Shown in pieces: positions 3,539 through 44,367 of a stretch of 44,651 bases of DNA (position 1 is the stretch's first letter; every line of letters begins with the position of its first letter). The position numbers were made by a program, and so were the translations under genes. The stretch is from an uncultured Verrucomicrobiales bacterium (GTDB lineage Bacteria; Verrucomicrobiota; Verrucomicrobiia; Verrucomicrobiales; DEV007), in NCBI GenBank assembly GCA_937891465.1, contig CALAHF010000218.1, positions 1 through 44,651 on the forward strand, written 5' to 3'. The notes under the pieces were generated by a model, which made no database searches, had not been told where the DNA came from, and was given only the letters and a program-made list of their open reading frames with translations.

Positions 3539-3581
3539 CGAATCAATAGGGTAAGTTCGATGAACAGACCCTGTTGGATAG
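3539..3581. repeat. 43-bp palindromic element, copy 2
   Basis: The arms CAATAGGGT and ACCCTGTTGG face each other around a GTTCG-A-TGAAC centre. About 14 of 21 opposed positions pair by Watson-Crick rules and three more by G-T wobble. It occupies the gap between two convergent genes (ends at 3482 and 3611), where a bidirectional terminator would be expected, but there is no clear T-run. On the minus strand one frame reads F-I-E-L-T-L-L-I-R-K. Confidence 0.85.
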
Positions 3582-8719: not shown

Positions 8720-8762
8720 CGAAGCAATAGGGTTGGTTCGCCGAACGGATAGGGTTGGTTCG
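8720..8762. repeat. 43-bp palindromic element, copy 3 (direct-core variant)
   Basis: This copy keeps the outer ends and the GTTCG-C-CGAAC centre. The core hexamer TAGGGT has the same orientation on both sides instead of facing its complement, so ATAGGGTTGGTTCG occurs twice. Its reverse complement matches the copy inside the WD40 gene at 36 of 43 positions without gaps. It lies in the 69-base gap between two sulfatase genes of one presumed operon. The minus strand is open as [10 protein letters not shown] and joins in frame the region upstream of the sulfatase start at 8703. Confidence 0.85.
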
Positions 8763-10242: not shown

Positions 10243-11856
10243 CTATTTTACGAACTCACCGAATGGGCGGTCATCGAATTTTGAAAGCGCATCAGACAAT
10301 TCTTTTTTCATGCGCTCAGCTATTTTTGGTTTTTTTGAAAATACATTTTCGTTTTCTTCGGGATCCGTTTTCAGATCGAATAACTGATCGGTCGTGAAAT
10401 AATGCGGATTGTGTTTGGCGGCTCCGTGTCCGAGATGGCTGTTTCTTGTGAGATAAGGCCGCTCCAAAATTTCACCTTCGAATCCTTTGAACGTCTTTCC
10501 TGCGTCGAGCTGTTTCTTCACTTTTTCGGGATAACGCACCGCGATGTATTTCCAGTTTTTGGTTTTGACAGAGCGGGAATGTCCTAGCTCGCCGAAGAGA
10601 ACTTGACGTAACGGTTTCTTATCTCCAAACACCGCTGGCTTGAAACTGATTCCGTCCATGGAGTAATCTTCTGGCGGTTTGATTCCGCAGATATCGAGAA
10701 TGGTTGGGGCGACGTCGATATTCGAAACGAGACCGTTGTATTCTGATCCCGGTTTGATTTTTCCTGTCCATTTCAGCAACATCGGAACTCTCATTCCATA
10801 ATCGTAGAGCGTCGCTTTGGCAGTTCGGTAAGAGCCGTGGTCGGGAACGAAAATGATGAGTGTGTTTTCGTCGAGCCCAAGGTTACGGACTTTGTCGAGC
10901 AGGGCGCCCACGCCATCGTCTAGCCAAAGCGCATACGCTGCGCGATCTTGAAATCCGGCGGCGCGATTTCGCCGAAGCACATCTTCACGAGATGGCATGA
11001 CATCAAATCCGTCTTCAACAAAACCCTCACCGGTCATGCGCGGATCGGCTTCGAGAGAAAATTTATTCGCCCAGGGCGCGGGGCCGTGGTGAAGCGTCGT
11101 CGAGAAATAAAGGAAGAAGGGTTCGTCTTTGCTTTCTTCGAGAAAATTAAACGCCTTGCTCACGGTCCAGTCGAGATTGTGAACGTTGAGCGAATCATTC
11201 AGCAGCTCTTTCAGGTTCGCTCCGTAAACTCCGTCTGCCCAATCGAAGCCGTATTTTTTAATTTCATCGCACCACTTTTGGTGATTGGCTTGCATCTTCG
11301 AATTCACTTCCGGATCACGCGGGTCGGCCGTTTTTGGATACGTCTGAATCTCAGCGGATTTGATGACAGCGTCTTTTCCGCCATGAGCCAGCCAGTCATG
11401 ACGGATGACATGCGACTTGCCAACGAAGCCCGTTTTGTATCCGTTTTTCTGAAGGACTTTGGGAAGATTCCACAGATCAGGTTCCAATTCGCCGATGTTT
11501 TCCACTTGAGTTTGATCTCCTGGAGGATGCTCTTCGAGAAACTTCTTTCCTTGGCATCGCCCCGCAAAACGTCCCGTCAGAAAGCTGTATCGAGAAGGCG
11601 AGCACACCGTCGAAGTGACATTGAAGTCCGTTAGGTAAAGTCCATCCTTGGCCATCTGATCCAGTCGTGGCGTATGAACGTTACCGCCCATGAATCCCAG
11701 AGAATCCCAACTTTGATCATCGGTCATGATCAGGATGATGTTTGGTTTCTCTGCGTGGTCGCCTTGGCTTATTGAAATCGTCGCATTGAAAATCAAAAGC
11801 ACGCCTAAAAATCTTGTGATCAGGGCATGGCTAACGCTGGGGAGGTCTATTTTCAT
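10243..11856 (-). CDS. Secreted sulfatase, heparan N-sulfatase/arylsulfatase-like
   Basis: The chosen ATG at 11856 gives 537 residues with a signal peptide (MKIDLPSVSHALITRFLGVLLIF and on to about residue 31). An in-frame extension to an ATG at 11913 would only translate palindromic repeat copy 4. The metal site is in LIMTDDQSWD, the active-site motif is V-C-S-P-S-R-Y with C85, and FVPDHGSYRTAKATLYDYGMRVP holds the second metal ligands. The C-terminal part (DQLFDLKTDPEENEN) is the usual tail. The pattern resembles N-sulfoglucosamine sulfohydrolase-like sulfatases. It is the second gene of the minus-strand run beginning at 14516. Confidence 0.93.
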   Translation of the reverse strand: MKIDLPSVSHALITRFLGVLLIFNATISISQGDHAEKPNIILIMTDDQSWDSLGFMGGNVHTPRLDQMAKDGLYLTDFNVTSTVCSPSRYSFLTGRFAGRCQGKKFLEEHPPGDQTQVENIGELEPDLWNLPKVLQKNGYKTGFVGKSHVIRHDWLAHGGKDAVIKSAEIQTYPKTADPRDPEVNSKMQANHQKWCDEIKKYGFDWADGVYGANLKELLNDSLNVHNLDWTVSKAFNFLEESKDEPFFLYFSTTLHHGPAPWANKFSLEADPRMTGEGFVEDGFDVMPSREDVLRRNRAAGFQDRAAYALWLDDGVGALLDKVRNLGLDENTLIIFVPDHGSYRTAKATLYDYGMRVPMLLKWTGKIKPGSEYNGLVSNIDVAPTILDICGIKPPEDYSMDGISFKPAVFGDKKPLRQVLFGELGHSRSVKTKNWKYIAVRYPEKVKKQLDAGKTFKGFEGEILERPYLTRNSHLGHGAAKHNPHYFTTDQLFDLKTDPEENENVFSKKPKIAERMKKELSDALSKFDDRPFGEFVK

Positions 11857-11869
11857 TGAATTGATTTTT

Positions 11870-11912
11870 CGAATCAACAGGGTCTGTTCGGCGAACATAC
11901 CCTGTTGGTTCA
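11870..11912. repeat. 43-bp palindromic element, copy 4 (most symmetric)
   Basis: This is the best palindrome of the family: 19 of 21 opposed positions pair by Watson-Crick rules or are complementary and one more is a T-G wobble, around a central G at 11891. The inner part is TGTTCGGCGAACA and the arms include AACAGGGT and ACCCTGTT. It ends 14 bases before the sulfatase start at 11856 on the minus strand, inside the 77-base gap after the haem protein gene. The minus strand reads F-A-E-Q-T-L-L-I-R-K in frame with the sulfatase. An RNA hairpin here could affect processing or translation of the downstream gene. Confidence 0.9.
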
Positions 11913-11933
11913 TTGGAGATTTTTGTGGAAGTA

Positions 11934-15162: not shown

Positions 15163-18100
15163 TTATTGTTCGCGGTGTTCAATCACAATACGATTAGATT
15201 CACCACCGGTCATGTGAAAGCCAGTCACGAGTTGCTGATCTTCGAGGAAAACGCCGCCTATTCTGATGCTGATTCCATTCGGCTTATCCACGTAGCTTCC
15301 TGAGATGAGGCCGGTTTTCACGTTGAATTTCAGTTTGATGGATTCTGGGCCGTAGTAGGTGATGTTGTTAGTTGCTGCCCAGGTGAGGGAATGTTCCAGA
15401 TCGAGATTTTCTATGCGGAGCCAAGCATTGTGATGGCTATCGGAAAGACTGCTGAACGCGGAAACGCCTTTGGCAGGTCGGGTAAATTGGCTTCCAACAA
15501 CGGCACGCAGGCTGTCGAATCCATTTGTATAAACGGTCGTTGGCCGGGATCCGCTCAGTTTTACCCAGCGAATTTCACCGTCGACATCCGAGATATCAGG
15601 AAGCTCGCGAAAGGTGAGGTTTCCGGCAAGAAATCCGGTTGGTTTAGAATAAATTCGACGATGAATAGACCACTGATCGTTTCGGGAATGATGGCCTGCG
15701 AGGGTTGCTTTGGTTCCGTCGGCTAGGGTAAATGCACCTTTGCACGTTCCGGTTGTTGAAACCGAAATGGTTCCATACCCATCGCCCGCTGGTTCGAGGG
15801 CGGGGGCGGTCGAAACGGGAGCGATGATGGCCACGGTGTAACGTCCAACATGCGGAGAAGGTGCCGCTTTGGAATGCGGATTTTTCTGAGCGTCAACGTT
15901 GTGGGAGACGCCGTCTATATCGACAGTGCCGGAGATTTGGAATCCGTCGGTTGTTCCGTCAGCGAGGCCAAGTTGCAGGACGAGGTCAATCGGAGGCAAC
16001 CCGCCTTTCCGATTGATGGATGTGATGATCGCGCCGGTTCCTGGATCGACAGCTCCTTTGAAGCTATACCGTAAGCCATCGATCCAGATTCTGCCGGTGA
16101 GGGTCCCTGATGAGTTGTATTTGACGCTTTCGATTCCGCCGGAAAATTCCAGAGACAAGGTATTGTTCAACACGCCGTGATAACTCCCTGCTGCCGCTGA
16201 ATCGTGGGCGATGGCGGTGAGAATCGGTCCGCTGGCGATCGATCCTGGTGCGGACGTGTCAGTGACGGCGCCGGGATCTTCGGAGCCGGGGTATACCCAA
16301 TCCGTGCCGGGTTTTATCCTTACGGCACCGGTCTTTCCACCATAGCTGAACACTCCAGCGGTGCGGGCTTGTTTTTGGAAGGCGACTCCGGTGAATCTAA
16401 TTTTCTTTTTTACAGCAGGATCGTAATAGCTGCCTTTGAGAGCTCCATTTTTATAGCTAACGGTTGCAGCGAGTTTTTCCGGGCCGTAATGCAGGATCTT
16501 GTTGTTCGCAAACCAGCTGGCGGCGCGGTGGGTGAATTCTGCCTCAGGGGTTTCGACGGGTGCAGTCGGGCCAACGAAGGTGATCTCAGCGTTGTAGTGT
16601 TGATCTGCCAGTTCCGGGAAAACGCGGACGTTTTTCGGTGGCGCGACAAACTTGGAACCGAGGGCCCACACGGCAAGATCGAATCCGTCGGGGTAAGTTT
16701 TCTCGCGGGTGTCGGCAAATTTTACCCACTGGAGAATGCCATCGAAATCGGATTGTCCGGGACGTTCGGCAATGGTCAACTGACCGCCGACGCGTCCTTT
16801 AGCGGGTTTGGTCCGATATATTTCCCGATAAAGGCAAAATTGATTTTCGGCGCTGAGATAGCCGACTTCGGTGAGCTTGGTTCCGTCCCCCAGTTTACCT
16901 GAGATTTTTACGGTTCCGCTGGTTGCAACACTAACTGTCGCCCAACCGTCGCCGCCGGGCTTGGTTTCGCCCCATCCTCCGATTGCAGGCATGACCATGG
17001 TGTAAGCACCAACGACCGATTCAGGAGCGGGGTTGTGTTTTTTATGAAACGGCATTCGCGGACAGTCCAGAGCGGCGGATGTGCCGTTGTGGCTCACCGT
17101 TCCTATAACGATTTCGCCCGCAGTACCCACGGCTTCGTGAAGCTGGAGTTCAACCGAGAGGATCGTTTTGTCTCTTTGGAGGAAGTCCTTCTGAAAGTAT
17201 CCGTTTTGATCGAACGCTCCCTTGACGCCAAAGCGACGCCCATTGTGATAGATGAGGCCGGAGAGAGAGCCGCCGGTAGTGGCTGTTGCTTTCGGGTTTT
17301 TAAGAGTCAACGTCGCGGAGCCAACGAGGGTGGTTCCGTCTTCGCTATTGAGAAGAAGGCCATCGTATTTTCCGGCATCGGAAGTTTTCCATTCGGCTGA
17401 GGGAGACGTTGTCAGAGGGATACCTGCCTCGAGTGGAGTTTCGGCCCGTTTTGTCGGGTCATCTGTAGAATCGGTTCGGCCGGGATCGCTTTGTCCGAAG
17501 GTGGAAAGCCCGTCTTCATCTTCAGCTCGAACCCAGTAAAATTGCCAGGATCCGGCAGGTGCGGCGGTGTCTTCGAACGAAGTAGAGCCGACTGGAAGCG
17601 TCGCGATTTCAACCGCGTTGTGGGTCAGGTTGAAGTCATTTCGGAAAACGCGATACCCGATGGTAGCCTCAGGCTGATCGGTCCAGCTGAGTTCGACTTT
17701 GTCTTCGAAAATGTCGTCCGTAGCGAGGAGATCTGAGATTGGATTGGGGAGCAATTTTTTCTCGACTGTATGGTCGGCCGATGTGCTGGCGAAGGTTTCA
17801 TTTCCTGCAAGGTCGGTGGCGATTCCAGCGGGAAGTGAGGCAATGACATCGCCTTCGCCGGTGGTTTCAGAAACTTCTGCAGCGAACGAGGCATCGCCAT
17901 CGGTTCCTGAATTGATTTCGGTTATGGCATTTGCGCCAGCGGTTCCTGCGAGTGAAACGTCTGCAGATTCAAAACCATAAACGGGCTCGGAGAAGTCGAC
18001 GTCAAAAATGATCGGATGTTCGATGGTAGGATCTTCCTGCGAGGTACCTTGTTCGATGGTGACGGTCGGTGAAATCGTATCGATGGTAAGGGAAGTAGCA

Positions 18101-21100
18101 CCCGTATTTGGGCTCATATTTCCAGCGACGTCGGACGCCCGGGCATGGATTTGATAAACGCCGTCGTCGAGTGGATCAGAGGTTTGCCAATCCGCATTGT
18201 TCAATCCGGAACCGATCGGATCCTCGTTTTCATCGAACAGGAAAACAGTGGTTCCATTTTCACCAATCCCGATAAAGGCAGGTTGGTTTTCACTGGTGAT
18301 TGCGTCGTCATCGAACGCACCTAAATCGCTCGTTGTTTTCAGAACTGGAATCGATGGTTTTTCAGGTTTGGTGATATCTACTTCTACGGAGAAGGGATCA
18401 TTTGAGATACCCTGGTTCCCGGCGAGATCGATTTGGCTTGCGGTGAATTGAGTGTTGCCTTCTGCCAGGTTCGCCGCGGGTGTGAAGTTCCAAACTCCAT
18501 CGCCTTCGACCGTGATTAATCCCTGATCGACTCCATCCTGATGAATTTGGATTTCGCCGGGTTCAGCATTCCCTTGAATGGTTGGAATTCTGATGTTGGT
18601 AATACTGTCCGAATTTGAAAGCCCGGAATCATCCTCTGAAGAAAGACGCAAGGCGCTTGGGGCTGGAGGTGCTGTGGTGTCGATCGTTACCGGAACAACG
18701 ACTGAAGACGGGCCCAAATTACCTGCTGTATCAGAGCTGCGGGCTGTCATTTGGTAGATACCGTCCGGGATAGGGGATGTTGATTTTGTCCAGGCGCCGA
18801 TGGTTTGAAACTGGGCGTAACTGGTGTCGTCAGCGAAGATTTTGACGACTTCTCCGAGTGAGGAGAACGCAGAAAACGCAGGGGTGTTATCACTGGTAAT
18901 TCCGTCAACGTCCGATGCGCCGGAGTCACTGGATTTCTCAAGCTTGAAATTAAACGGAACGAAGTTTGGCTTCTTGTTGTCGACAATGATTGAGATGCTC
19001 GCGCTCGGAAAGCTTTGGTTTCCGGCCAAATCGACACTGAGGGCATGCAGTGTTCGCTGCTGATCGTCGGATGGCGGGGAATCTCCAATGTCAGTGCTGG
19101 CGGTGACTTGAAAATTCGGGCCACCGTCTCCAGTTCCGATTTCTTCGTTGTCTGAAAAGAGTTTGATGAGTGTATCGGCTTCGGAATTCCCGGAGATCGT
19201 TGGTGTTGTATCAGCGGTCAGGTCGTCATCGTCGGATTCCCCAAGATCACTGGCAGCGATTAGATCCAAGTCGGTTGGAGGAATGGGTTTGGTAGTGTCG
19301 ACCACCAGGGTAATTGACGGTGAGATAGGTCCTTTATTTCCAGCAAGGTCAATCTGACGGGCATTGATTTCAAATGTGCCTTCGTCGATGGCGGCAGTGA
19401 GACTCCACGATCCACCAGTGCCGGGCGTGCTGCCGATCGAGGTTCCATTTGAGAGAAGTTCGACGGTCGCAGTGCTATCACTCCCTGATCCGGAAAATGA
19501 AGGTGTGGTGTCTTGGGTGATATTGTCAGTGTCAGAAACGCCGGTATCGCTGAGCGTTTGAAGATCCGGTGCGGTGATTGCTCCGGGAGTGGTGATGTCG
19601 ATGGTCACATTGAGAGTCGAAACCGGGCTCTGGTTTCCGGCGGCATCCGTCGATTGCGATGTGAAGTTATGAATTCCTTCACCAAGGGTGGACGTCGTAA
19701 AGAAGAACGTACCGGTGCCTGATCCAACTAGACCTGCGGTTGACTCTGTTATTGCGATACTGGCCGTGGATTCGGTCGAATTGTAAAATTGCAGGGTTCG
19801 GTCTTTAGTGATGTTATCGGTCTGCGAAGACCCTAAATCGCTGGCAGCAGTGAGGTCCAATCCGGGGGCAGCCGGGGCAGTGGTATCGACTTGTAACGTC
19901 ATCACCGGTGACGTTGTCGTATTCCCTGCAATGTCGATTTGGCGTGCCGTTATCAGCCGTGTGCCATCTGACAGGTTATTCAAAGGAAGGCTCCAAGCGC
20001 CACCACCGGCCGTTGACCCGACTTCGACGCCATTTGAAAGAAGTCGCAATAATTGTCCGCTGGTGGAGTTCGACCCGTCGATCGTCAGATTTTTGTTCGA
20101 AGTGATGTTGTCAGTATCTGAAATTCCCGAGTCCTGGGCTGCTGAGATATTCGGCTGTGCAATCGCGGCGGGTGGTGTGGTATCAATCGTCAATGCAAAC
20201 GGTGTCGTTGCAGAGCTGACGTTGCCTGAGACGTCGGACGCGGTCGCTGTGATCTGGTGGACTCCATCGGCGAGTTGAGGCACGCTTATTCCGCTTCCAA
20301 CATCAGCAGAACCAATGAGGCTGGCGATGCTACTGAATAGTGAAACTCTAGTTCCGTTATCTGAAGAAAACGTAAAATTAAGCGTGGTGGCATTGGTAAT
20401 GTTATCAGAATTCGACACGCCGGAATCCGATCCGGAAGTCAGGTCTATATTTGTCGGTGAACTTGGGGCCTGAGTATCGATCACGACGACAAGCTCGGGA
20501 GACGTGCTGCCGCCAGCAGGAGTAACCGTAACCGAGTGACTACCATCGGCCATTGCGGTCGATGGCTGAATGGTCCAAACACCTGAAGCATTCGCAGTCG
20601 CGGTGCCGAGATTACCGGCAATGCTGGAGTTCAACGTGACAATCGTAGAAGGAGGAGTGAGTCCCTGAAAAACAGGTTGATTGATGTTTGTCTGATTGTC
20701 GGAATTTGATTCTCCAGAATCGCTGGAGGTAGAAAGGTCGAGCGTCGATTCCGCCGGCGGCACGGTTCCGGTCAACGATACATCATCGAATGCAAAACCA
20801 TCCATTGTGATGGAGTAGTTGTCGAAATGGTTGAACCGGATTCTAAAATCACCGTTGTAACTGATGCCGGCAGCCAAAATTGCCGCATCAAGATCAACCG
20901 TGAATTGCTGCCAGTCCGCGGTAATTGCGGTCCCTCGAAGCGGAGTCACTTCGTGCCAGGTAACGCCGTCTTCGCTGATTGCAACGCCGTCGAAGTCAGC
21001 GCCGTTGGTGAAGGGGTTGGTTGGGGGCGCATTGTCTTCGTCTCCAAATTCCTTCGCATAAAATTCGAGTTGAACTGAGTTCGCTCCAAAAAGATTTAGA

Positions 21101-23316
21101 GAAAGCGTCAGTTCGTTTCGCGCATTCGAATTGTCTGTAGCGCTGTCCATTGTGACGTGCCACGCGCCGGTTCGTGGCGAGTTCTCTTGTGTGACAATGG
21201 TCCGATGAGTTCCAGTACCCGTAACCGTCCATTCCGAGCGAAAATTCCCCGTTTCGAAGCCATCCCCAAAAATCAAAGCCACCACCGAAAATGCTGCGTC
21301 CGAGAAATCTTCAATTGCCGGATTGTTCAGACTGCTGACTCGAATGGTATAATCCGAAGTCGAAGGTAGGCTTGAAGGAGGCGTCCACAGATAGTCGCCG
21401 GCTGAGGACGCGCCGGGGCTAATGACCGAATGAAACGTCCCCGCTTTATAGAGATCAATTTTCACGTCTCCGGTAATGTTCGCACCGAATTCGATGTTTG
21501 TTGGTTGACTGGTAAAAACAGATTCCCCTCCGTTCGGAGACGTCACTGTGATCGTATTCAGAGGCTGTCCGCCAAATCGAACATCCATGCTTGCGCCGGG
21601 AAGACTTAGCACCTCAATCGTGATATTTGAATCCGTTCCGTCCCACCATTTGGCGTCTGGAAGCGAAGTGTCATCGAACTTCCCAAAATTTAGATCAAAC
21701 GCATCGCCCGAATCACCCCGGCCCTGATTATTTTCCAAATTAAATAAACCATCAGCCTGCTCCACGGAAACCTCGTAGTGCAGCGCCGACGTCATTTGCT
21801 CATTGTTGTTGCCGTTCACCGTTTCATCGATGTGCCAAATCATGATCCCTTTATCTGCAACATGATCCGCCCAAATGTCCCCGGAACCCCGGTTATCAAG
21901 AATGAAATATTCCGTCGACGAGCTCGGTTTTCGGATGCGATACGCGACATTCCCCGTCGTTGGCAGTGTAGCTGTCGTGAAGGATGATGCCGAGAGATCC
22001 GTGATATTCATCCACCCGGATACATCTTTAAAATACGGATTGATTGGAGCCGGAGTCCGCCCACCATTGACGTGATTGCCCGAGCCCATCAGCGCGAGAT
22101 TTCCAACCCCGGCCGATTCGCCACCGTAGTCATAAAGGTCAGGTAGTTTCAGCAGAAGGTGCCCGTTCTCGTGGCAGAAAGTCCCGATCGTCATTGATGA
22201 CGAAGCTGCATTCGTGATTTGATAATCGTAGGCGTAAATCGGATTCGCTGTTGTCCCAGCATTCACGATTGGGTTTGTCACCCAACGGTGCGGCCAAAGG
22301 CCCTCACTCCAAACGCCGGAGTTCGCTCCGGCGAAAATAATGTTGGTCGCGATCATCCGGTTCGATCCGTTCACAGTCACCCCGGAAAAGTCGAAACTCT
22401 GAGCCTTCAATGCCTCAATTGCATGCTGAACGACCAATCGTCCGGTCTGGCCGCTGTCACGCAAAGTCGCATTGGTCGGATGATCCGAAAAATTGTACCA
22501 ATTCCTTGGATTTGGCAGCGTCACAATCGGGGCGACAACTTGCGTGTAGGTCACCTGGCCCAACGATTGTCCCGAAAAATAATCCCGCACCGATCCGGTA
22601 TTTCCATCGTCCGTGTATCCAGCTTCGTTGCAGTAGCGCTCCACCTTGGCGTAGGGCGCCGGGAAGTTCACAGGGTCCGACGTTGCCGTTGTCAGGTCAT
22701 CCGGAAATTGAACGGGAACCGTCAAGCCCACCTGATTCCCCAATACAGCAAATGCTGGTGGGTCCTCGTCACCTTCATCAGCCGCGATACCTGAGCCTGA
22801 GCCATCCGGTTTAGGAGCGGCGGCAGGAGTTTTTGCTTCAGTTTCCCGTTGCTGCCTCGCCTGCTGAACTCGAGCCTTCCAATTCGCTTCTTCGTTCGGG
22901 AAAATGGCATCCCTCCGCGCTCTCCAAAGCGATTCCCTTTTTTCAGACGAAAGCTGAACCGGTTTAGCCCCGTTTGCCTCCATACCGGCTTTTGGCGACG
23001 CTTTCGCGGCGGCACTCCCTACTCGAATCCCCGAGGGAACCAGGTCAGTGCCATCCGCCGAAAGCGATGCAAATTCATAGGCATTCGTCGCTTTGTTAAA
23101 AACCACCGTTCGCCCTTCTTCAGACTCGGTCCGCGCATAAAATTCGTCCCCGAAAACACGAAGTTTGATGAGGTTCCCATCTGGCTGAGTCCACTCGACT
23201 TCCAGCCCCTCTGGTGGATACGGCGCACTTCGAAGATCTAGCGCCACAAACGCCAACAAAAACAAGGCTACTACACAATAAATCAAATTGGTTCTTCCAA
23301 AAAAACAATAATTCAT
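15163..23316 (-). CDS. Giant secreted M6-like metalloprotease with Ig-like repeats and duplicated C-terminal module
   Basis: This 2717-residue protein starts at ATG 23316 with an AGGAGG ribosome site 9 bases upstream. Domains in order: signal/anchor helix (11-31); pro-region; M6-type protease (about 190-580) with zinc motif H382-E-N-G-H386 followed by LPDLYDY; a Ser/Thr-rich beta domain (NTITVTSPNGGESVF, about 595-690); a MAM/jelly-roll-like domain (about 690-850); nine Ig-like repeats of about 97-105 residues (about 855-1745), each with a D-[ST/L]-G-x-S-x-x-D-[NDG]-[IQL]-T signature and ending in V-D-T-T or similar; one different Ig-like domain with SEPV; a fibronectin III domain (about 1865-1960); and two related modules of about 350 residues (about 1980-2340 and 2370-2717). 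It is probably a cell-surface or secreted protease with a long stalk. No autotransporter, PEP-CTERM or LPXTG end is visible; the two C-terminal modules may act in binding or secretion. Confidence 0.9.
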   Translation of the reverse strand: MNYCFFGRTNLIYCVVALFLLAFVALDLRSAPYPPEGLEVEWTQPDGNLIKLRVFGDEFYARTESEEGRTVVFNKATNAYEFASLSADGTDLVPSGIRVGSAAAKASPKAGMEANGAKPVQLSSEKRESLWRARRDAIFPNEEANWKARVQQARQQRETEAKTPAAAPKPDGSGSGIAADEGDEDPPAFAVLGNQVGLTVPVQFPDDLTTATSDPVNFPAPYAKVERYCNEAGYTDDGNTGSVRDYFSGQSLGQVTYTQVVAPIVTLPNPRNWYNFSDHPTNATLRDSGQTGRLVVQHAIEALKAQSFDFSGVTVNGSNRMIATNIIFAGANSGVWSEGLWPHRWVTNPIVNAGTTANPIYAYDYQITNAASSSMTIGTFCHENGHLLLKLPDLYDYGGESAGVGNLALMGSGNHVNGGRTPAPINPYFKDVSGWMNITDLSASSFTTATLPTTGNVAYRIRKPSSSTEYFILDNRGSGDIWADHVADKGIMIWHIDETVNGNNNEQMTSALHYEVSVEQADGLFNLENNQGRGDSGDAFDLNFGKFDDTSLPDAKWWDGTDSNITIEVLSLPGASMDVRFGGQPLNTITVTSPNGGESVFTSQPTNIEFGANITGDVKIDLYKAGTFHSVISPGASSAGDYLWTPPSSLPSTSDYTIRVSSLNNPAIEDFSDAAFSVVALIFGDGFETGNFRSEWTVTGTGTHRTIVTQENSPRTGAWHVTMDSATDNSNARNELTLSLNLFGANSVQLEFYAKEFGDEDNAPPTNPFTNGADFDGVAISEDGVTWHEVTPLRGTAITADWQQFTVDLDAAILAAGISYNGDFRIRFNHFDNYSITMDGFAFDDVSLTGTVPPAESTLDLSTSSDSGESNSDNQTNINQPVFQGLTPPSTIVTLNSSIAGNLGTATANASGVWTIQPSTAMADGSHSVTVTPAGGSTSPELVVVIDTQAPSSPTNIDLTSGSDSGVSNSDNITNATTLNFTFSSDNGTRVSLFSSIASLIGSADVGSGISVPQLADGVHQITATASDVSGNVSSATTPFALTIDTTPPAAIAQPNISAAQDSGISDTDNITSNKNLTIDGSNSTSGQLLRLLSNGVEVGSTAGGGAWSLPLNNLSDGTRLITARQIDIAGNTTTSPVMTLQVDTTAPAAPGLDLTAASDLGSSQTDNITKDRTLQFYNSTESTASIAITESTAGLVGSGTGTFFFTTSTLGEGIHNFTSQSTDAAGNQSPVSTLNVTIDITTPGAITAPDLQTLSDTGVSDTDNITQDTTPSFSGSGSDSTATVELLSNGTSIGSTPGTGGSWSLTAAIDEGTFEINARQIDLAGNKGPISPSITLVVDTTKPIPPTDLDLIAASDLGESDDDDLTADTTPTISGNSEADTLIKLFSDNEEIGTGDGGPNFQVTASTDIGDSPPSDDQQRTLHALSVDLAGNQSFPSASISIIVDNKKPNFVPFNFKLEKSSDSGASDVDGITSDNTPAFSAFSSLGEVVKIFADDTSYAQFQTIGAWTKSTSPIPDGIYQMTARSSDTAGNLGPSSVVVPVTIDTTAPPAPSALRLSSEDDSGLSNSDSITNIRIPTIQGNAEPGEIQIHQDGVDQGLITVEGDGVWNFTPAANLAEGNTQFTASQIDLAGNQGISNDPFSVEVDITKPEKPSIPVLKTTSDLGAFDDDAITSENQPAFIGIGENGTTVFLFDENEDPIGSGLNNADWQTSDPLDDGVYQIHARASDVAGNMSPNTGATSLTIDTISPTVTIEQGTSQEDPTIEHPIIFDVDFSEPVYGFESADVSLAGTAGANAITEINSGTDGDASFAAEVSETTGEGDVIASLPAGIATDLAGNETFASTSADHTVEKKLLPNPISDLLATDDIFEDKVELSWTDQPEATIGYRVFRNDFNLTHNAVEIATLPVGSTSFEDTAAPAGSWQFYWVRAEDEDGLSTFGQSDPGRTDSTDDPTKRAETPLEAGIPLTTSPSAEWKTSDAGKYDGLLLNSEDGTTLVGSATLTLKNPKATATTGGSLSGLIYHNGRRFGVKGAFDQNGYFQKDFLQRDKTILSVELQLHEAVGTAGEIVIGTVSHNGTSAALDCPRMPFHKKHNPAPESVVGAYTMVMPAIGGWGETKPGGDGWATVSVATSGTVKISGKLGDGTKLTEVGYLSAENQFCLYREIYRTKPAKGRVGGQLTIAERPGQSDFDGILQWVKFADTREKTYPDGFDLAVWALGSKFVAPPKNVRVFPELADQHYNAEITFVGPTAPVETPEAEFTHRAASWFANNKILHYGPEKLAATVSYKNGALKGSYYDPAVKKKIRFTGVAFQKQARTAGVFSYGGKTGAVRIKPGTDWVYPGSEDPGAVTDTSAPGSIASGPILTAIAHDSAAAGSYHGVLNNTLSLEFSGGIESVKYNSSGTLTGRIWIDGLRYSFKGAVDPGTGAIITSINRKGGLPPIDLVLQLGLADGTTDGFQISGTVDIDGVSHNVDAQKNPHSKAAPSPHVGRYTVAIIAPVSTAPALEPAGDGYGTISVSTTGTCKGAFTLADGTKATLAGHHSRNDQWSIHRRIYSKPTGFLAGNLTFRELPDISDVDGEIRWVKLSGSRPTTVYTNGFDSLRAVVGSQFTRPAKGVSAFSSLSDSHHNAWLRIENLDLEHSLTWAATNNITYYGPESIKLKFNVKTGLISGSYVDKPNGISIRIGGVFLEDQQLVTGFHMTGGESNRIVIEHREQ

Positions 23317-25178: not shown

Positions 25179-27680
25179 ATGAATTCATTTCGTATTTTTA
25201 CGGCGCAGTTATTCAGTGCAGCAGCTTTGTCGGCTGCATGTTTTGCTGGTGACATCGCGATCGTTCCAGAAACGGCAACGCTTCAAGGTCTCGAAGGTCG
25301 TCAGCATCTTCTCGTATTAAAAAAGGACGGAGAGTTTTTCGCTGGCGAAGCTGAAGGAGTAACATTGGTATCTTCGAATCCGGACATCGTTTCAATCAGT
25401 AATTCTGAAATCGGATTGCCGGTTGCTCTTGCGAAGGCCAATGGCGAGGTCACGATCACGGCGACGGATGCATCGGGTACAAAATCAACGGCGACCGTGA
25501 AAGTCACTGCTTTCGATCAGGCTCACACGTGGTCTTTCTCAAATCACGTGCTGCCGGTTCTCTCACGTAACAACTGCAACACCGGCGGTTGCCACGGTTC
25601 GATTGCGGGGAAGGGTGGGTTTCGACTCAGCTTAAACGGCTACGATCCCCCGAGCGATTTTTTCAGGATGACACGCGAAATGCGCGGTCGAAGAATTGAG
25701 ATGGCAGACCCTGCGCGGAGTCTAGTGCTGACAAAACCGACCCAGGCAACGCCTCACAAAGGTGGAAAAAGATTACATCCGACGTCACGAGATTACCGAG
25801 TGGTAGCGGAGTGGATCACAAACGGCGCGGATGCTCCTTCGGAAAAAGATGCCGCACTCGCCCGGCTCGAAGTGCTGCCTGAATTGTCTCAATTGAAGCC
25901 GGGGCAAACCCAGCGCGTTGTTGTGATGGCCCACTACGCCGATGGTAAAGTCGAAGACGTCACGAGTTGGGTGCGCTGGTCATCTGCGGATGAAACAGTT
26001 GCTGAAGTGGATAAAAACGGAACGATTTCTGTGATCGGTCACGGGCAGGGAGCAGTTACCGCTTGGTTCTCCAGTCAGGTCGCTATTTCCCGAGTGACGG
26101 TTCCATTTCCAAACGACATTCCAGATTCGTTTTTTACCGATTCCAATCGCGCGAATTTTATCGATGACCTCGCGTTGGTGCAACTTCGTCAGCTCAACCT
26201 GAAGCCTTCACCGCGCACCACTGACAACCAGTTTGTTCGTCGCGTCTTTGTCGATACGATTGGAAAGCTTCCCACCATCGAAGAGACTCAGGAATTCGTT
26301 GCTGATAAAGATCCTGACAAGCGCACCAAATTAATCGCTGCGCTTTTGGAGCGCCCTGAATTTGTCAGTTACTGGACCTACCGCTGGTCGGACATGTTCC
26401 TCGTGAACGGCCGGTTGCTTCGTCCTGATCAAGTGGAGGCCTACTACAAATGGATTCGCGGAAACGTAGAGAAAAATACTCCCTGGGATCAAATGGCTCG
26501 GGAATTAGTCACGGCAAAAGGAAGCAGTGTTGAGAACGGCGCGACGAACTTTTACGCCGTTCATCAGGACCCCGAAACGATGGCTGAAAATGTGAGCCAG
26601 GCGTTCCTGAGTCTTTCGATCGGTTGCGCCAAGTGCCACAATCATCCGCTCGAGAAGTGGACCAACGATCAATACTACGCCTTCGCAAATCTGTTTTCCC
26701 GCGTCCGCGCGAAAGGCTGGGGAGGGGACGCCCGAAATGGCGACGGCATTCGCACCCTTTATGTCGAGCCACGTGGAGATTTGATTCAGCCACGCACCGG
26801 AAAGCCGCAGCCGCCAGCGCCGCTTGATGGCGATATCGTCGATCCCGATTCAGAAATGGATCGGCGCGATGCCCTGGCAGAATGGTTGGTTGCTCCGGAA
26901 AATCCCTACTTTGCGCGTTCAATTACGAATCGCGTCTGGGCCGCGTTCTTTGGAAAAGGGATTGTTGAGCCGGTCGACGATTTGCGTGCTTCCAACCCAG
27001 CCAGCAACGAACCGCTATTGGCTGCGTTGAGCGATCATTTGGTGAAAAATAAATTCGATCTAAAATCCATCATGCGAGTTATCCTGGAAAGCGAAACCTA
27101 CCAGCGCAGCTCGGAAGCCCTGCCAGAGAACGAAAAAGACGAGCGCCAGTTTTCCCACTATTACCCGCGCCGGATGATGGCCGAAGTGTTGCATGATGCT
27201 ATTGCCGACGTCACGAAGGCTCCGGCGATGTTCAAGAAAATTAAATTGAATGATGGCAGCACGGCGGACACAAAACATTACAAAGACGGTGCGCGAGCCC
27301 TGGAGCTTTACGATTCAGCGGTCGATTCCTATTTCCTGAAAACCTTCGGGCGGAATGATCGCGATATCGCCTGCGAATGCGAGCGTAGCAATCAGCCGAG
27401 CATGGTTCAGGTCCTGCACCTTTCCAACGGCGACACGCTCAACAAAAAGCTCAGTCAAAAAGAGAGCATCGTTGAAACATTGATGTCCGAAAAAGACGTC
27501 ACAGACGAATCGATTATCACCGCGGCCTACATGGCTTGTTTGTCCCGCGAACCGGAGAAGCGGGAACTCGATGGCTTCCGCGTGATATTCAAACAAACCC
27601 CCGAACTCGAAAAACGAACCGCAGTCGAAGACCTCTTCTGGGCGCTGATGACATCGCGCGAGTTTTTGTTTCAGCATTAA
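25179..27680 (+). CDS. DUF1549/DUF1553 protein with Ig-like domains and haem-type motifs
   Basis: This 833-residue protein has a signal peptide (MNSFRIFTAQLFSAAALSAACFAG). Domains: a BIG2-type Ig-like domain (about 25-110); a cysteine segment C-N-T-G-G-C-H (about 130-140) typical of planctomycete cytochrome-like regions; a second BIG2-like domain (about 230-310); DUF1549 (about 325-540), including the haem-type motif C-A-K-C-H-N-H-P; and DUF1553 (about 560-820) with DRRDALAEWLVAPENPYFARS and SITNRVWAAFFGKG. These proteins are exported and thought to bind c-type haem; the reaction is not known. It lies between DUF1501 and cytochrome-WD40 genes with gaps of 12 and 24 bases, so the three products probably work as one complex or pathway. 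Confidence 0.92.
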   Translation: MNSFRIFTAQLFSAAALSAACFAGDIAIVPETATLQGLEGRQHLLVLKKDGEFFAGEAEGVTLVSSNPDIVSISNSEIGLPVALAKANGEVTITATDASGTKSTATVKVTAFDQAHTWSFSNHVLPVLSRNNCNTGGCHGSIAGKGGFRLSLNGYDPPSDFFRMTREMRGRRIEMADPARSLVLTKPTQATPHKGGKRLHPTSRDYRVVAEWITNGADAPSEKDAALARLEVLPELSQLKPGQTQRVVVMAHYADGKVEDVTSWVRWSSADETVAEVDKNGTISVIGHGQGAVTAWFSSQVAISRVTVPFPNDIPDSFFTDSNRANFIDDLALVQLRQLNLKPSPRTTDNQFVRRVFVDTIGKLPTIEETQEFVADKDPDKRTKLIAALLERPEFVSYWTYRWSDMFLVNGRLLRPDQVEAYYKWIRGNVEKNTPWDQMARELVTAKGSSVENGATNFYAVHQDPETMAENVSQAFLSLSIGCAKCHNHPLEKWTNDQYYAFANLFSRVRAKGWGGDARNGDGIRTLYVEPRGDLIQPRTGKPQPPAPLDGDIVDPDSEMDRRDALAEWLVAPENPYFARSITNRVWAAFFGKGIVEPVDDLRASNPASNEPLLAALSDHLVKNKFDLKSIMRVILESETYQRSSEALPENEKDERQFSHYYPRRMMAEVLHDAIADVTKAPAMFKKIKLNDGSTADTKHYKDGARALELYDSAVDSYFLKTFGRNDRDIACECERSNQPSMVQVLHLSNGDTLNKKLSQKESIVETLMSEKDVTDESIITAAYMACLSREPEKRELDGFRVIFKQTPELEKRTAVEDLFWALMTSREFLFQH

Positions 27681-27704
27681 AATTTACGGTTCCTGAAAGA
27701 CATC

Positions 27705-30587
27705 ATGAAACCCTCTTTTCCAACCTTGTTTGCGACTTTCTTCGCCACGCTTTGCACCACGCTATTCGCTGCGCCCGGTTCACCCGACTTCCACGCCGAC
27801 GTCGCGCCGTTTCTCCGTGACTATTGCGCTGGTTGTCACAACGAGATCGATGCGGATGGCGACCTCAATCTCGAAACGTTTGCTCTGCTTTCAAAGGGTG
27901 GAGAATCGCAGGATGATCATCCCATTCTTGTTCCCGGCGACGCCGAAAAATCTTATCTTTTTCAACTCATTGCCGGTCTTGGAAAAGACGTGATGCCTCC
28001 CGAAGAGGAAACGGCGCAGCCTTCGGCAGCGGAAATCGGTATTATCAAACGCTGGATCGATGCCGGTGCGAAAGGCCCCAAACCGGAGGATGATAAATCG
28101 ATCATCTCGACGTTGAGCGTTCCCAAAATCACGGCGAAGCCTGAAAAAACGGCAAAACCAATCACTGCAGCGGGGTATTCGCCGGATGGAAAATGGCTCG
28201 CGATTGCCCGGTTCGGCGCCGTGGAAATTCAGGATGCGTCTTCGGGAAAAGTGGTGCGGACAATTCAGGATCAAACCGGAAAAGTGAATGCGGTTCATTT
28301 TTCGCCGGATGGCACGAAACTGGTAACGGCTTCCGGAATCACCGGTCTAAAAGGCGTCGCGACGATTTTCGAAGCGGCCACTGGAAAGATGCTTCACGAA
28401 ATCGGCGGTGAAACCCACCGTGATATTCTGTTCGATGCTGAGTTTTCACCCAACGGAAAGCTGCTCGCGACAGCGGGCTATGACAAAGTGATTCGGATTT
28501 GGAATGCGGAGTCGGGAACCTACATCAGTCAGATCGCGGGGCACAACGGAGCGGTTTTTGATCTCGCATTCTCGCCCGATGGGACGCTGCTTGCCTCGGC
28601 CAGCGCGGATGAAACCGGGAAGATTTGGGATGTGAGATCGGGGGAGCGGCTCGACACGCTGAACCAGCCGCAGGGCGAACAGTTTCGAATCGCTTTCACG
28701 CCTGATGGAAAGTTTATCGTGGGCGCTGGCGCGGATAACCGGATTCGGTTGTGGCGGTTGCTTTCGAAAACGAATCCACGCATCAATCCTGTGGTGCATG
28801 CGCGGTTTGGTCACGAGGATGCAATCAACGATTTTGCAATGTCGCGCGATGGAAGATGGCTGGTTACCGCATCGTCAGATGATTCGGTGAAACTGTGGTC
28901 ACTGCCGGATTTGGAGCAGAAGGAAATGTTTGGCGATCAGCCTGATCTCGTTTCGGCGCTCGCGTTTTTGCCGAAGGGCGGCGGTTTCAAAGCCGCGCGG
29001 ATGGACGGAACGATCCAACCCTATTCGTTCGATGAACAGACCCTATTGGTTCGTAAAACCGAAAATGAGCCCGACCGAACAGACCCTATTGGTCCGATGA
29101 ACGAACAGGGTGCGATCGTGAAAGTTGCTGAGGCGAGTGGCGATGCGGCGCAGGCGGTTTCGGTGCCGACGGAGATTTCGGGGAAGATCGAAACGGAAGG
29201 CGACATGGATGATTTTAAGTTTTCTGCGAAAGCAGGGCAGCAGGTGATTTTGGAAGTGAATGCGGCGCGTTCGAAATCGATGCTCGATTCAAAAGTCGAA
29301 GTTCTGACGGCGGACGGCAAGCCGATTGAACGCGTTGTGTTGCAGGCGCAGCGAGATTCGTGGTTCACGTTTCGGGGGAAAGATTCGAATACTGCTGATG
29401 ATTTTCGGGTTCATAACTGGCGTGAGATGGAGCTGAATGAAATGCTCTATGCGAACGGCGAGGTCGTAAAATTGTGGCACTATCCGCGCGGCCCGGATTC
29501 CGGTTTTCGGGTGTATCCGGGTTTTGGAAATCGGCGGACCTATTTTGATACCACGTCGCTTTCACAGCCGCTCGGTGGGCCGTGTTATATCGTGAAGCCA
29601 TTGCCGGCGGGTTCCGACCCGTCGCCGAATGGATTGCCGGTTTATCGGCTCTATTGGGAAAATGATGACGATGCCCGTCGTCGTCTTGGTAAAGATTCGA
29701 AGCTGACGTTCACGGCTCCGGCGGGTGGCGATTATATTGCGCGGATTTCAGATGTGCGTGGGTTTGGGGGTGAGAAGTACGATTATAAATTGACGCTTCG
29801 TTCACCGACCCCGGATTTTGAAATCAAGCTCACGCAAAATCTGATGGTGGGTCCAGGGAGCGGTAAGGAAATCGGGATCACGGTGACGCGGGCGGATAAT
29901 TTTGAGGGACCAATCACGGTCGATATCAAAAATCTGCCGAAGGGATTTTCTGCGAGCACGCCGATCACAATTGAGACGGGTCAGGACCGTGGCGTTGCCG
30001 TGTTGAATGCGGCGGCGGATTTGATTCCTGCGGTGATGGAAGATGTGAAAGGCAAGGATGACAAGGTGACCAAGAAGCCGAAATCGATTCCCGCCGAAGG
30101 CTGGGATAAGGTGACGGTCGTGGCGACGGCAGATCTCGCAGGCAATCCGGTGACAAAAGAACTTGGGCATCTTGGAAAGATCGCGCCGGGCGTTGCGCCG
30201 AAGGTTTTGATCACGATTAAGCCGGACGGCGACAACGGAAAAGTCGGCAAGGACGGGATTTTGGAATTCGAAATCGAGCCGGGCGAAACGATCAGCGCAA
30301 TGGTCGAAATCGAGCGTCGCGACAAGTTTACAGGGCTCGTGAATTTCGGAAAAGACGAATCCGGTCGCGGCATGCCGCACGGAGTTTTCGTCGATAACAT
30401 CGGCCTGAGCGGTCTGATGATTCCCGAAAAGAAGACCGAGCAGCGTTTCTTTTTCACGGCATCACCAATCGTCGGCGAGCAGGAGAGTTTGTTCTGGCTG
30501 AAGACCGGGTCGGACGGGACTCAGGCGAGTAGGCCGGTGCGGGTGCGGGTGGTGAACGTGAAAGAATTGACGACTGCGCAGAAATAG
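27705..30587 (+). CDS. Planctomycete-type cytochrome c with WD40 propeller, carrying an in-frame palindromic repeat
   Basis: This 960-residue protein has a signal peptide (ending near FAAPGSPDF). Residues about 25-125 are a PSCyt1-type cytochrome with haem motif C-A-G-C-H (in LRDYCAGCHNEID). Residues about 150-435 hold WD40 repeats (for example DLAFSPDGTLLASASAD, KIWDVRSG and DDSVKLWSLPD). Residues about 490-700 look like a pre-peptidase C-terminal (PPC) domain, followed by beta-rich domains to the end. Residues 437-470 (29011-29113) are encoded by one full and one partial copy of the 43-bp palindrome, between the propeller and the PPC domain. The insert keeps the frame (F-D-E-Q-T-L-L-V-R-K) and probably forms a surface linker. 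It is the third gene of the DUF1501 trio. Confidence 0.92.
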   Translation: MKPSFPTLFATFFATLCTTLFAAPGSPDFHADVAPFLRDYCAGCHNEIDADGDLNLETFALLSKGGESQDDHPILVPGDAEKSYLFQLIAGLGKDVMPPEEETAQPSAAEIGIIKRWIDAGAKGPKPEDDKSIISTLSVPKITAKPEKTAKPITAAGYSPDGKWLAIARFGAVEIQDASSGKVVRTIQDQTGKVNAVHFSPDGTKLVTASGITGLKGVATIFEAATGKMLHEIGGETHRDILFDAEFSPNGKLLATAGYDKVIRIWNAESGTYISQIAGHNGAVFDLAFSPDGTLLASASADETGKIWDVRSGERLDTLNQPQGEQFRIAFTPDGKFIVGAGADNRIRLWRLLSKTNPRINPVVHARFGHEDAINDFAMSRDGRWLVTASSDDSVKLWSLPDLEQKEMFGDQPDLVSALAFLPKGGGFKAARMDGTIQPYSFDEQTLLVRKTENEPDRTDPIGPMNEQGAIVKVAEASGDAAQAVSVPTEISGKIETEGDMDDFKFSAKAGQQVILEVNAARSKSMLDSKVEVLTADGKPIERVVLQAQRDSWFTFRGKDSNTADDFRVHNWREMELNEMLYANGEVVKLWHYPRGPDSGFRVYPGFGNRRTYFDTTSLSQPLGGPCYIVKPLPAGSDPSPNGLPVYRLYWENDDDARRRLGKDSKLTFTAPAGGDYIARISDVRGFGGEKYDYKLTLRSPTPDFEIKLTQNLMVGPGSGKEIGITVTRADNFEGPITVDIKNLPKGFSASTPITIETGQDRGVAVLNAAADLIPAVMEDVKGKDDKVTKKPKSIPAEGWDKVTVVATADLAGNPVTKELGHLGKIAPGVAPKVLITIKPDGDNGKVGKDGILEFEIEPGETISAMVEIERRDKFTGLVNFGKDESGRGMPHGVFVDNIGLSGLMIPEKKTEQRFFFTASPIVGEQESLFWLKTGSDGTQASRPVRVRVVNVKELTTAQK
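29011..29053. repeat. 43-bp palindromic element, copy 5, inside the WD40 gene
   Basis: This is a full-length copy within coding sequence. It belongs to the direct-core variant, with ACCCTATT on both sides of the GTTCG-A-TGAAC centre. It matches the reverse complement of copy 3 (8720-8762) at 36 of 43 positions. It encodes S-F-D-E-Q-T-L-L-V-R in the host frame. A second, rearranged partial copy follows after about 22 bases. Confidence 0.9.
29076..29113. repeat. Rearranged half-copies of the 43-bp element inside the WD40 gene
   Basis: The right half of the element (CGAACAGACCCTATTGG) is followed by a left half (GAACGAACAGGGT), so the two arms face each other in outside-in order. The stretch encodes R-T-D-P-I-G-P-M-N-E-Q-G in a different element frame from copy 5, still without a stop. 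It looks like a second insertion, or a duplication followed by rearrangement. Confidence 0.75.
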
Positions 30588-30603
30588 ACAAGCGTTTCAG
30601 TGG

Positions 30604-31155
30604 ATGACCAAAGCTAAAAAGAAACTCCTGTTCAAAGCAATTGAAGAAGGCGATCTCAAATCGTTGGAAGAGATTTGAGAGGATCATGTCGAAGCTTTGG
30701 AGATCACTGGTGAACACAATCGAAATGTTCGCGACAAATCTCCGCTCATGTATGCGATGCAATGTTCTAAATTTAAGGTGGTGAATTATTTGCTTGGAAG
30801 AGGTGCTGATAGCACTGCTCGAATGGCGGGAGGGCCTCGTTCCTCAGTGCTGGGACTGTGTGTGAGTTTTGCGTTTTGTGATGCCAAGAACCATGATCGA
30901 TGGATTAAGTTAGCCATCAAATTAATCGATTTAGGAGCTGATCCGAGTTCAGCTCTCTGGACGGCGCTTCATGGCTTTGGTGGAATCGTAGATCGTGACG
31001 ATCTTATCCGGCTTTTGCTCGATCGAGGAGCAGATCCAGATCAATTAGTTGGGAATAGTGGTGATGCGGTTCGTGAACTGGTTGCAGTAAACAGCCGGCT
31101 CTACACCGATAAGGTTCTTAAATTATTTACCGAAAAAAATGATCGAGCCGACTAG
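30604..31155 (+). pseudogene. Ankyrin-repeat protein interrupted by an in-frame TGA
   Basis: ATG 30604 opens a frame of 24 codons (MTKAKKKLLFKAIEEGDLKS, then LEEI) that ends at TGA 30676-30678. The same frame continues without further stops to 31155. The part after the stop reads like ankyrin repeats (KSPLMYAMQCSKFKVVNYLL, GRGADS; IKLIDLGADPSSALWTALHG; LIRLLLDRGADPDQLV). The first helix before the stop fits the start of the same repeat array, so a single base change explains the break. A shortened protein from TTG 30697 (152 residues) is possible. No SECIS-like element was sought or seen, so selenocysteine is unlikely. The gene begins 16 bases after the WD40 gene stop. Confidence 0.75.
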
Positions 31156-38067: not shown

Positions 38068-38110
38068 CGATCGAACAGGGTTGATTCATCGAATGTACCC
38101 TATTGGATCG
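38068..38110. repeat. 43-bp palindromic element, copy 6
   Basis: This inverted-core copy has arms AACAGGGT and ACCCTATT and the inner part GATTCATCGAAT. Compared with copy 4 it has compensatory changes at pairs 4/40 (T-A for A-T) and 17/27 (A-T for G-C). It lies between the acetyltransferase stop (38052) and the PQQ-propeller gene start (38200). A possible half-copy (TTCAATTGACCCTATCGAG) follows at 38143-38161. The plus strand is open as F-I-E-C-T-L-L-D-R. Confidence 0.88.

Positions 38111-44293: not shown

Positions 44294-44367
<74 letters not shown>

Follow-up and report, generated by a model that had tools for sequence, protein, structure and literature searches.

Palindrome-family array in the WD40 gene

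The window analyzed here, a 44,651-nt stretch comprising contig C218 (CALAHF010000218.1) of the 5.97-Mb draft genome of an uncultured Verrucomicrobiales bacterium (GCA_937891465.1; designated G000), contains on the forward strand a gene (27705–30587, from the open reading frame [ORF] list) whose 960-amino-acid product has a PSCyt1 cytochrome domain and a WD40 propeller according to Pfam. The open frame of this gene runs uninterrupted through sequence of a dispersed palindrome family at approximately residues 436–471, and WD40 orthologues align on either side of this segment. An earlier interpretation made from the nucleotide letters alone (the sequence-only reading) had described an in-frame element free of stop codons, with the frame intact on both sides, and this description holds. 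The feature is probably an old array of half-units belonging to a palindromic family that resembles the repetitive extragenic palindromic (REP) sequences, and it fills the linker after the WD40 propeller. In the WD40 protein, the segment is most likely tolerated filler.

The array extends from 29012 to 29117 and consists of four half-units of GAACNNACCCTRTTGGTTCG with 2, 0, 1, and 3 mismatches, respectively; the sequence-only reading was right that the element is present, whereas it had recognized one full and one rearranged half copy at 29011–29113. Half-units 1 (29012–29031), 2 (29034–29053, encoding EQTLLVR), and 3 (29077–29096, encoding TDPIGP) lie on the forward strand, and half-unit 4 (29098–29117), located by the pattern scan, is on the reverse strand, inverted relative to unit 3. 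Units 1 and 2 form a same-orientation pair 22 nt apart, and units 3 and 4 form a '+-' pair 21 nt apart. No canonical palindrome, with inverted halves 23 nt apart, is found in the WD40 gene.

In the congeneric genome G001, the counterparts of units 2 and 3 encode LLVRK and NPVDS, respectively, and unit 2 also has counterparts in the genus g12 (DPTLLVG in G035). The spacer at 29054–29076 is probably a decayed half-unit, because G001 has a recognizable '-' half at the corresponding place. At the position of unit 1, no half was detected in G001 at ≤4 mismatches. The idea that unit 1 had replaced native codons represented by G001 was withdrawn, since a '-' half occupies the same codons in g12; for this reason the G001 sequence may itself be a decayed unit.

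The WD40 protein had a match in 51 of the 57 genomes searched (its own included), many of them partial. The sequence-only reading had located the element between the propeller and a PPC-like domain. The position after the propeller was correct; the PPC label is without confirmation, because no Pfam family matched residues 472–960 at E ≤ 0.001. A terminator role of the array was rejected, as the five terminator-like sites in 27000–31000, of which one lies in the array, do not exceed the 5.7 expected.

Copy number and geometry of the family

Half-sites matching GAACNNACCCTRTTGG numbered 1,669 in G000 at ≤2 mismatches, compared with 46 for the reversed pattern. At ≤1 mismatch, there were 1,051 in G000, 1,020 in G001, and 74, 28, 53, and 47 in four g12 genomes, whose variant is undercounted by a search pattern derived from g1, the genus of G000 and G001; every other genome of the 57 had 10 or fewer. 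Among the 72 matches listed in a scan of named genomes, 67 came from Verrucomicrobiales bacterium isolate SS_bin_30, and the others listed came from two further Verrucomicrobiales records and from three unrelated records, each of which had a single match. Viral contigs contained no exact match to the 20-nt pattern.

A 1.085-Mb sample of G000 (18% of the genome, the window included) contained 160 clusters, defined as at least one half at ≤3 mismatches, and the reversed pattern of GAACNNACCCTRTTGGTTCG had no match in this sample at the same threshold. One, two, three, and four halves were present in 27, 91, 14, and 28 clusters, respectively. Neighboring halves were arranged as '-+' at 23 nt in 94 cases, in the same orientation at 22 nt in 64, and as '+-' at 21 nt in 2, with additional spacings of 31–32 nt in the four-half arrays. 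Because of where the pattern is cut, the three spacings represent a single geometry, in which 21-nt units (CGAAC-11 nt-GTTCG) of either orientation follow one another at a pitch of 22 nt. The commonest form is a palindrome of approximately 43 bp, whose stem is extended by T and A flanks.

Genomic placement

Coding regions were called with our own hexamer caller, which designated 90.4% of the sample as coding. The 160 clusters were divided into 104 intergenic clusters, 42 touching gene ends, and 14 within genes, and only 11 of the 135 multi-half clusters (133 clusters if overlapping matches are merged) were within genes. Genes are thus avoided by the family. Among intergenic copies, the distance to the 3′ end of a gene was ≤20 nt in 64 of 106, and the distance to a 5′ end in 18 of 97. 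The orientation of the flanking genes was close to background (22 '-+' and 20 '+-' of 105, compared with 135 and 136 of 667), and no excess between convergent genes was observed in the 0.82 Mb examined.

In-frame copies in other genes

Multi-half in-gene sites of G000 were found in the genes for the WD40 protein, PanC, GalM, a HemN/HemW-type protein, UvrA, a MenD-like protein, a hydantoinase-like protein, a DUF1549 protein, a DUF7133/cytochrome protein (two sites), and a 1,145-amino-acid protein with only a sub-threshold DUF748 match. G001 adds IscS, MnmA, a solute-binding protein, and others. The same peptides are encoded in unrelated enzymes. The suggestion of the sequence-only reading that the element encodes surface segments did not gain ground, since nothing speaks for surface display; several of the carriers are cytosolic enzymes.

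When the interiors of 1,454 genes were synonymously recoded in 15 runs, 0–2 paired sites were obtained compared with 26 observed, some of the latter being counted twice in overlapping loci. The reading frames of 19 in-gene palindromes were distributed 9/6/4; these palindromes are not all independent, the HemN/HemW-type gene being counted in both species, and some of them belong to short or weak ORFs or are close to the end of a gene. Non-genic copies were open in 298, 311, and 252 of 418 strands in the three frames. A frame preference had first been suggested by the recurring peptide TNxQGxFDExTLLVR and was not upheld by the 9/6/4 counts. Single halves with 3 mismatches in the genes L110 and L035, which by eye encode an MscS-like protein and a DUF1501 protein, are probably due to chance, as recoding yielded 3–10 such halves per set. 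A chance origin of the single half in MnmA of G000 is countered by the full palindrome present in MnmA of G001.

A second dispersed repeat was noticed among the G000 and G001 loci searched, in pieces of 56–70 bp with 89–91% identity to the copy in L098. It occurs in five places (L098:12824-12911, L033:9969-10032, L040:19816-19885, L111:11393-11448, and L046:8780-8844), and the L098 copy, which has a palindrome on either side, is translated in frame. In addition, fragments resembling the start of the HemN/HemW-type protein and containing two stops, likely a pseudogene, were found at G000:C20:28782-29077.

Sharing with the sister species G001

Element sequence was present in both G000 and G001 in all seven comparable genes, five of which had been chosen from G000. 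These genes encode the WD40 protein, GalM, the HemN/HemW-type protein, UvrA, the DUF7133 protein, MnmA, and the product of the L331/L105 gene; in the last of these, just the last part of the element is visible in G000. Outside the comparison are PanC (no G001 match), L094, L096, and L106 (no match among the G001 loci searched), L162 and L035 (matches of 34% and 42% without halves), and L110 (match ending before the site).

Among 13 conserved gene neighborhoods, the element was present in both species in two, in G001 only in one, and in neither in 10; in a synteny comparison of the first G001 contigs, six pairs showed no element. At the two shared intergenic sites, the element aligns, in contrast to most of the intergenic DNA around it. 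No target-site duplication, which accompanies the terminal inverted repeats of MITEs, was noticed in the three intergenic alignments, and there was no clean empty site. Recent mobility of the element is not supported, because the sister species has the array in the same WD40 linker and element sequence in the six other comparable genes.

Genus-specific versions at the same codons in g12

For comparison with g12, the best unit pair (36 scored positions) was determined at each site in the orthologues. At the WD40 site, the three g12 orthologues had 8, 9, and 11 mismatches, compared with 16–21 in 16 orthologues from eight other genera. At the PanC site, the four g12 orthologues had 7, 9, 10, and 10 mismatches, compared with 18–22 in 24 others. 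At the DUF7133 site, the g12 values were 8, 10, 13, and 21, the last being a remote homologue, so that three of four carry the variant, compared with 17–22 in 21 others. For each of these ten g12 copies, the rest of the aligned DNA contained no window with an equally good score. The ranges overlapped for the HemN/HemW-type gene (10, 12, and 15 in g12 versus 13–20 in 25 others).

The g12 copies in the WD40, PanC, and DUF7133 genes are '-+' palindromes of a GACYCAACCCTGTTGASTCG-like variant. In 90 kb of g12 loci, the majority of them retrieved for the studied genes, the core ACCCTGTTG was found 13 times, whereas 565 kb from other genera contained it 4 times. Relative to g12, one unit has the opposite orientation in WD40, in PanC, and at the first DUF7133 site of G000. 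Since the g12 variant lies at the same codons, these three sites either predate the genus or were hit on two occasions. Genus-specific versions at identical codons can be explained by old copies kept in step by conversion or by repeated hits, and they allow a direct test between conversion and independent hits. Beyond the six studied sites, the g12 variant was also seen at L199:3877-3930, as two same-orientation units 22 nt apart, and on the reverse strand of L224 near position 1070.

The sequence-only reading had considered that the segment would be an old part of the protein if distant orthologues all carried it. The 16 orthologues from eight other genera are without it, and a diverged form is present in all three of g12. 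The linkers of other genera are unrelated and of similar length. These observations bear on the view that the encoded peptide was exapted because it gives the linker a property under selection. The presence of element sequence in the same linker of both g1 species and g12 would fit such a role, but its arrangement and sequence differ among the two g1 species and g12, unrelated linkers of similar length serve in other genera, and the same peptides are found in unrelated enzymes. We therefore consider exaptation very improbable.

Length of the occupied segments

In the WD40 protein, the element accounts for 36 amino acids, and the linker is 70 amino acids long compared with 65–85 in 19 orthologues from other genera, a comparison that excludes L072, from which the region is missing, and L073–L077, which are more distant. 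The residues that the sequence-only reading took to be added by insertion are thus not apparent in the length of the linker. In PanC of G000 (element, 15 amino acids), the segment is 41 amino acids long compared with 43–44 in 25 of 28 relatives, one truncated relative being dropped, and the four g12 PanC proteins with the variant align without gaps to element-free PanC. In IscS of G001 (element, 15 amino acids), the alignment with the mitochondrial cysteine desulfurase 6nzu_A, which we take to be the human protein, is gap-free at the element; the IscS match in G000, which lies at G000:C217:19054-20220 and is 74% identical, spans 1,167 nt and that in G012 spans 1,176 nt, compared with 1,164 nt. 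Likewise, the g12 copies in DUF7133 add no length.

Gains were found at the other sites. The segment of GalM (element, 15 amino acids) is 39 amino acids compared with a median of 36 (34–45), a gain of 3; that of UvrA (element, 14 amino acids) is 38 compared with 30 (22–49), a gain of 8 in a hypervariable loop; and that of the HemN/HemW-type protein (element, 32 amino acids) is 56 compared with 46 (40–52 outside G001), a gain of 10. The DUF1549 protein (element, 15 amino acids) has a segment of 39 compared with 28 (22–32) in 13 homologues, a gain of 11, and the DUF7133 protein of G000 (element, 58 amino acids including two copies) has one of 82 compared with 38 (33–58), a gain of 44. The gain was smaller than the element-encoded length in all eight measured cases, being nil in some and large in others.

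Ordinary insertion, in which transposed copies added residues and those in frame were kept in loops and later shrunk by deletion, would account for the net gains in GalM, UvrA, the HemN/HemW-type protein, DUF1549, and DUF7133 of G000 relative to the median of relatives or homologues, and the variation of the UvrA loop between 22 and 49 amino acids agrees with it. On the other hand, a gain below the encoded length in every measured case, the gap-free passage of G001 IscS through the element, a PanC of G000 that is shorter than its relatives, and the gap-free PanC and DUF7133 copies of g12 all argue against it, and we regard insertion as a plausible but unlikely origin.

Alternatively, copies may have overwritten partly similar native sequence by short-patch replacement or by template switching at a hairpin; the frame would be kept because the length hardly changes. 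The length-neutral cases (IscS, PanC in two genera, and DUF7133 of g12) are of the kind that overwriting would produce, and in IscS the element is also flanked by TTTTACGAA and TTCGTA, as in the family consensus. Furthermore, 399 of 400 other 15-mers coded by the element fit the relatives less well than the PanC segment does; this comparison mixes frames, so that selection after arrival can explain the score. The net gains at other sites speak against overwriting, and deletion after insertion could also have led to the length-neutral cases. Overwriting is accordingly a serious possibility, not proof, and in our estimate its chances come close to even. No description of short-patch illegitimate recombination was found in the literature collection searched.

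Protein segments derived from repeat DNA are known, but they are regarded as residues added in loops. We tentatively propose, while holding it to be more probably wrong than right, that a REP-like element colonizes genes by substitution: a hairpin-borne sequence of approximately 43 bp would overwrite partly similar codons without a change in length, enter conserved enzymes such as IscS and PanC in any open frame, and subsequently follow the family sequence of the genus in which it resides; identical codons would consequently carry genus-specific versions. If in-place overwriting does occur, block substitutions in conserved enzymes would be gap-free in alignments and missed by annotation.

Probable hairpin with a kept bulge

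Each unit has two variable internal bases, and inverted pairs avoid complementarity at these positions. In G000, 5 of 98 inverted pairs were complementary at the dinucleotide compared with 15.1 expected by shuffling (5 of 5,000 shuffles were as low); in G001, the corresponding value was 5 of 130 compared with 27.5 expected (0 of 5,000 shuffles). Same-orientation pairs did not avoid an identical dinucleotide (22 of 62 in G000, 13.7 expected; 4 of 20 in G001, 2.6 expected), and their sharing of the dinucleotide above expectation fits copying of one unit onto its neighbor. That pairing is avoided can be understood only if the two arms meet, as they do in a hairpin, and the restriction of this avoidance to inverted pairs points to a bulged hairpin. 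We infer that the working form is a bulged single-stranded hairpin. The transposase of E. coli REPs is reported to need such a bulge (PMC8266576). Another explanation of the bulge is protection from the clearance of long perfect palindromes, which is discussed for heterodimers in PMC3733652.

The pairing results also bear on the view that the half-unit is a protein-binding or uptake-type motif toward which native DNA drifts or is driven, the palindrome being secondary. The units are conserved without covariation between the arms, single halves make up 27 of the 160 clusters, and in-gene copies partly coincide with native residues, the copies of each genus following their own variant; all of this would agree with a motif. 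However, the fixed pitch of the 94 inverted and 64 same-orientation pairs, together with the avoidance of complementarity in inverted pairs only, indicates that the pairs are the units. Known uptake motifs are much shorter and common in genes. A motif origin is therefore improbable.

Origin and candidate mobilizer

For the old REP-like array, the following course appears most likely. The copies would have spread before the split of g1 and g12. Their spread would be due either to an HUH-type enzyme, such as one resembling the REP-associated tyrosine transposase (RAYT), or a similar one that is no longer found, or to hairpin arms being copied at replication forks or template switching at hairpins. 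In-gene copies would persist given an open frame and a tolerant segment, and conversion or repeated copying would keep them close to the sequence of the family in their genus.

Several results weigh against this origin. No transposase could be tied to the family: Y1_Tnp gave one match with a stop in G000 and one weak match in G001, both genomes being drafts, and no g1-type half was present in 13 Y1_Tnp loci, just three of which were from g1 or g12. The arms show no covariation, their conserved positions pairing as often as in shuffled partners, so that structural covariation was rejected as a line of support. The array in the WD40 gene and the intergenic copy at 8720–8762 do not fold as the canonical hairpin. 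UvrA and DUF7133 of G001 show just one half each, at ≤4 mismatches, and one of the three comparable intergenic element sites is not shared, in a poorly aligned region. In g12, none of the four GalM orthologues has a recognizable element (18–21 mismatches; 19–23 in 24 others), and the same is true of the four UvrA orthologues (21, 23, and 23, one being too short; 19–27 in the 14 scorable of 24 others). Finally, function, conversion, or independent hits on identical codons, rather than age, could account for the sharing.

A RAYT-driven family was rejected as far as the drafts show, on account of the scarcity of Y1_Tnp and the lack of halves at Y1 loci; Y1 counts in the other 55 genomes ranged from 0 to 36. 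The family shows measurable selection for a bulged hairpin without a known mobilizer. The sole Y1_Tnp match of G000 (L081, G000:C171:2452-2754) has an internal stop codon, and its neighbors are by eye a dihydroxy-acid dehydratase-type gene and a sulfatase-type gene.

Comparison with known repeat families

According to Di Nocera et al. 2013 (PMC3733652), REPs occur inside genes of several species, and intragenic GTAG repeats are most numerous in Opitutus terrae, a verrucomicrobium, both uvrA genes of which carry them. The presence of REP-like DNA in frame in verrucomicrobial genes, uvrA included, was therefore already known. No other description of such a palindromic family in Verrucomicrobia was found in the literature collection searched. 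The interesting residue comprises the kept bulge, the length-neutral occupation of conserved enzymes, and the finding that the two genera have their own versions at identical codons.

REPs and their hairpin-forming doublets (REPINs) resemble the present family in being short imperfect palindromes of high copy number that are mainly extragenic, in forming inverted dimers (94 pairs here) and arrays (28 of 160 clusters with four halves), and in lying near gene 3′ ends with a minority inside genes, including uvrA (PMC3733652). A hairpin with a kept internal mismatch is likewise described for E. coli REPs (PMC8266576). Unlike the GTAG and CGTC super-families, the present family has no conserved tag in the base frequencies around 327 halves; the center trinucleotide is GTC or GAC in 21 of 98 pairs. 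It further differs from REP/REPIN in that no RAYT gene was found in the G000 and G001 drafts, no excess is seen between convergent genes, and several in-gene copies do not lengthen the protein.

The sequence-only reading had likened the element to the Rickettsia palindromic elements (RPEs). The likeness stands insofar as a dispersed palindrome lies in frame in genes of unrelated function (WD40, PanC, GalM, UvrA, IscS, MnmA, and others), as is described for RPEs (PMC10969869); it fails for the choice of frame, the family here having no frame preference. The elements listed here are also shorter (43–106 bp compared with approximately 150 bp), and 11 of 135 clusters are in genes compared with nearly half of the RPE copies (PMC10969869). 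PARCEL repeats are also coding sequences with dyad symmetry, but they are tandem 25-residue domains in ORFs, whereas the family here is mainly intergenic (PMC2996958).

Other copies and features of the window

Two further canonical palindromes in the window fold as DNA hairpins with an internal loop, one of them intergenic (3539–3581) and the other (11870–11912) overlapping the predicted 5′ end of the ORF at 10243–11913 on the reverse strand. The pattern scan also detected three intergenic copies, namely the copy at 8720–8762, which has two '-' halves 22 nt apart, a degenerate canonical palindrome with 3 and 2 mismatches in its halves (38068–38110), and a single degenerate half-unit with 3 mismatches on the forward strand (822–841).

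Apart from the family, the contig start (1–54) consists of three overlapping 24-nt copies of TGATTCGCGCGTATC at a 15-nt spacing. A gene on the reverse strand (15163–23316) encodes a 2,717-amino-acid protein with nine Big_13 Ig-like stretches. Near the contig end, a tRNA-Met (CAT) gene is located at 44294–44367 and represents the sole Rfam match in the window.

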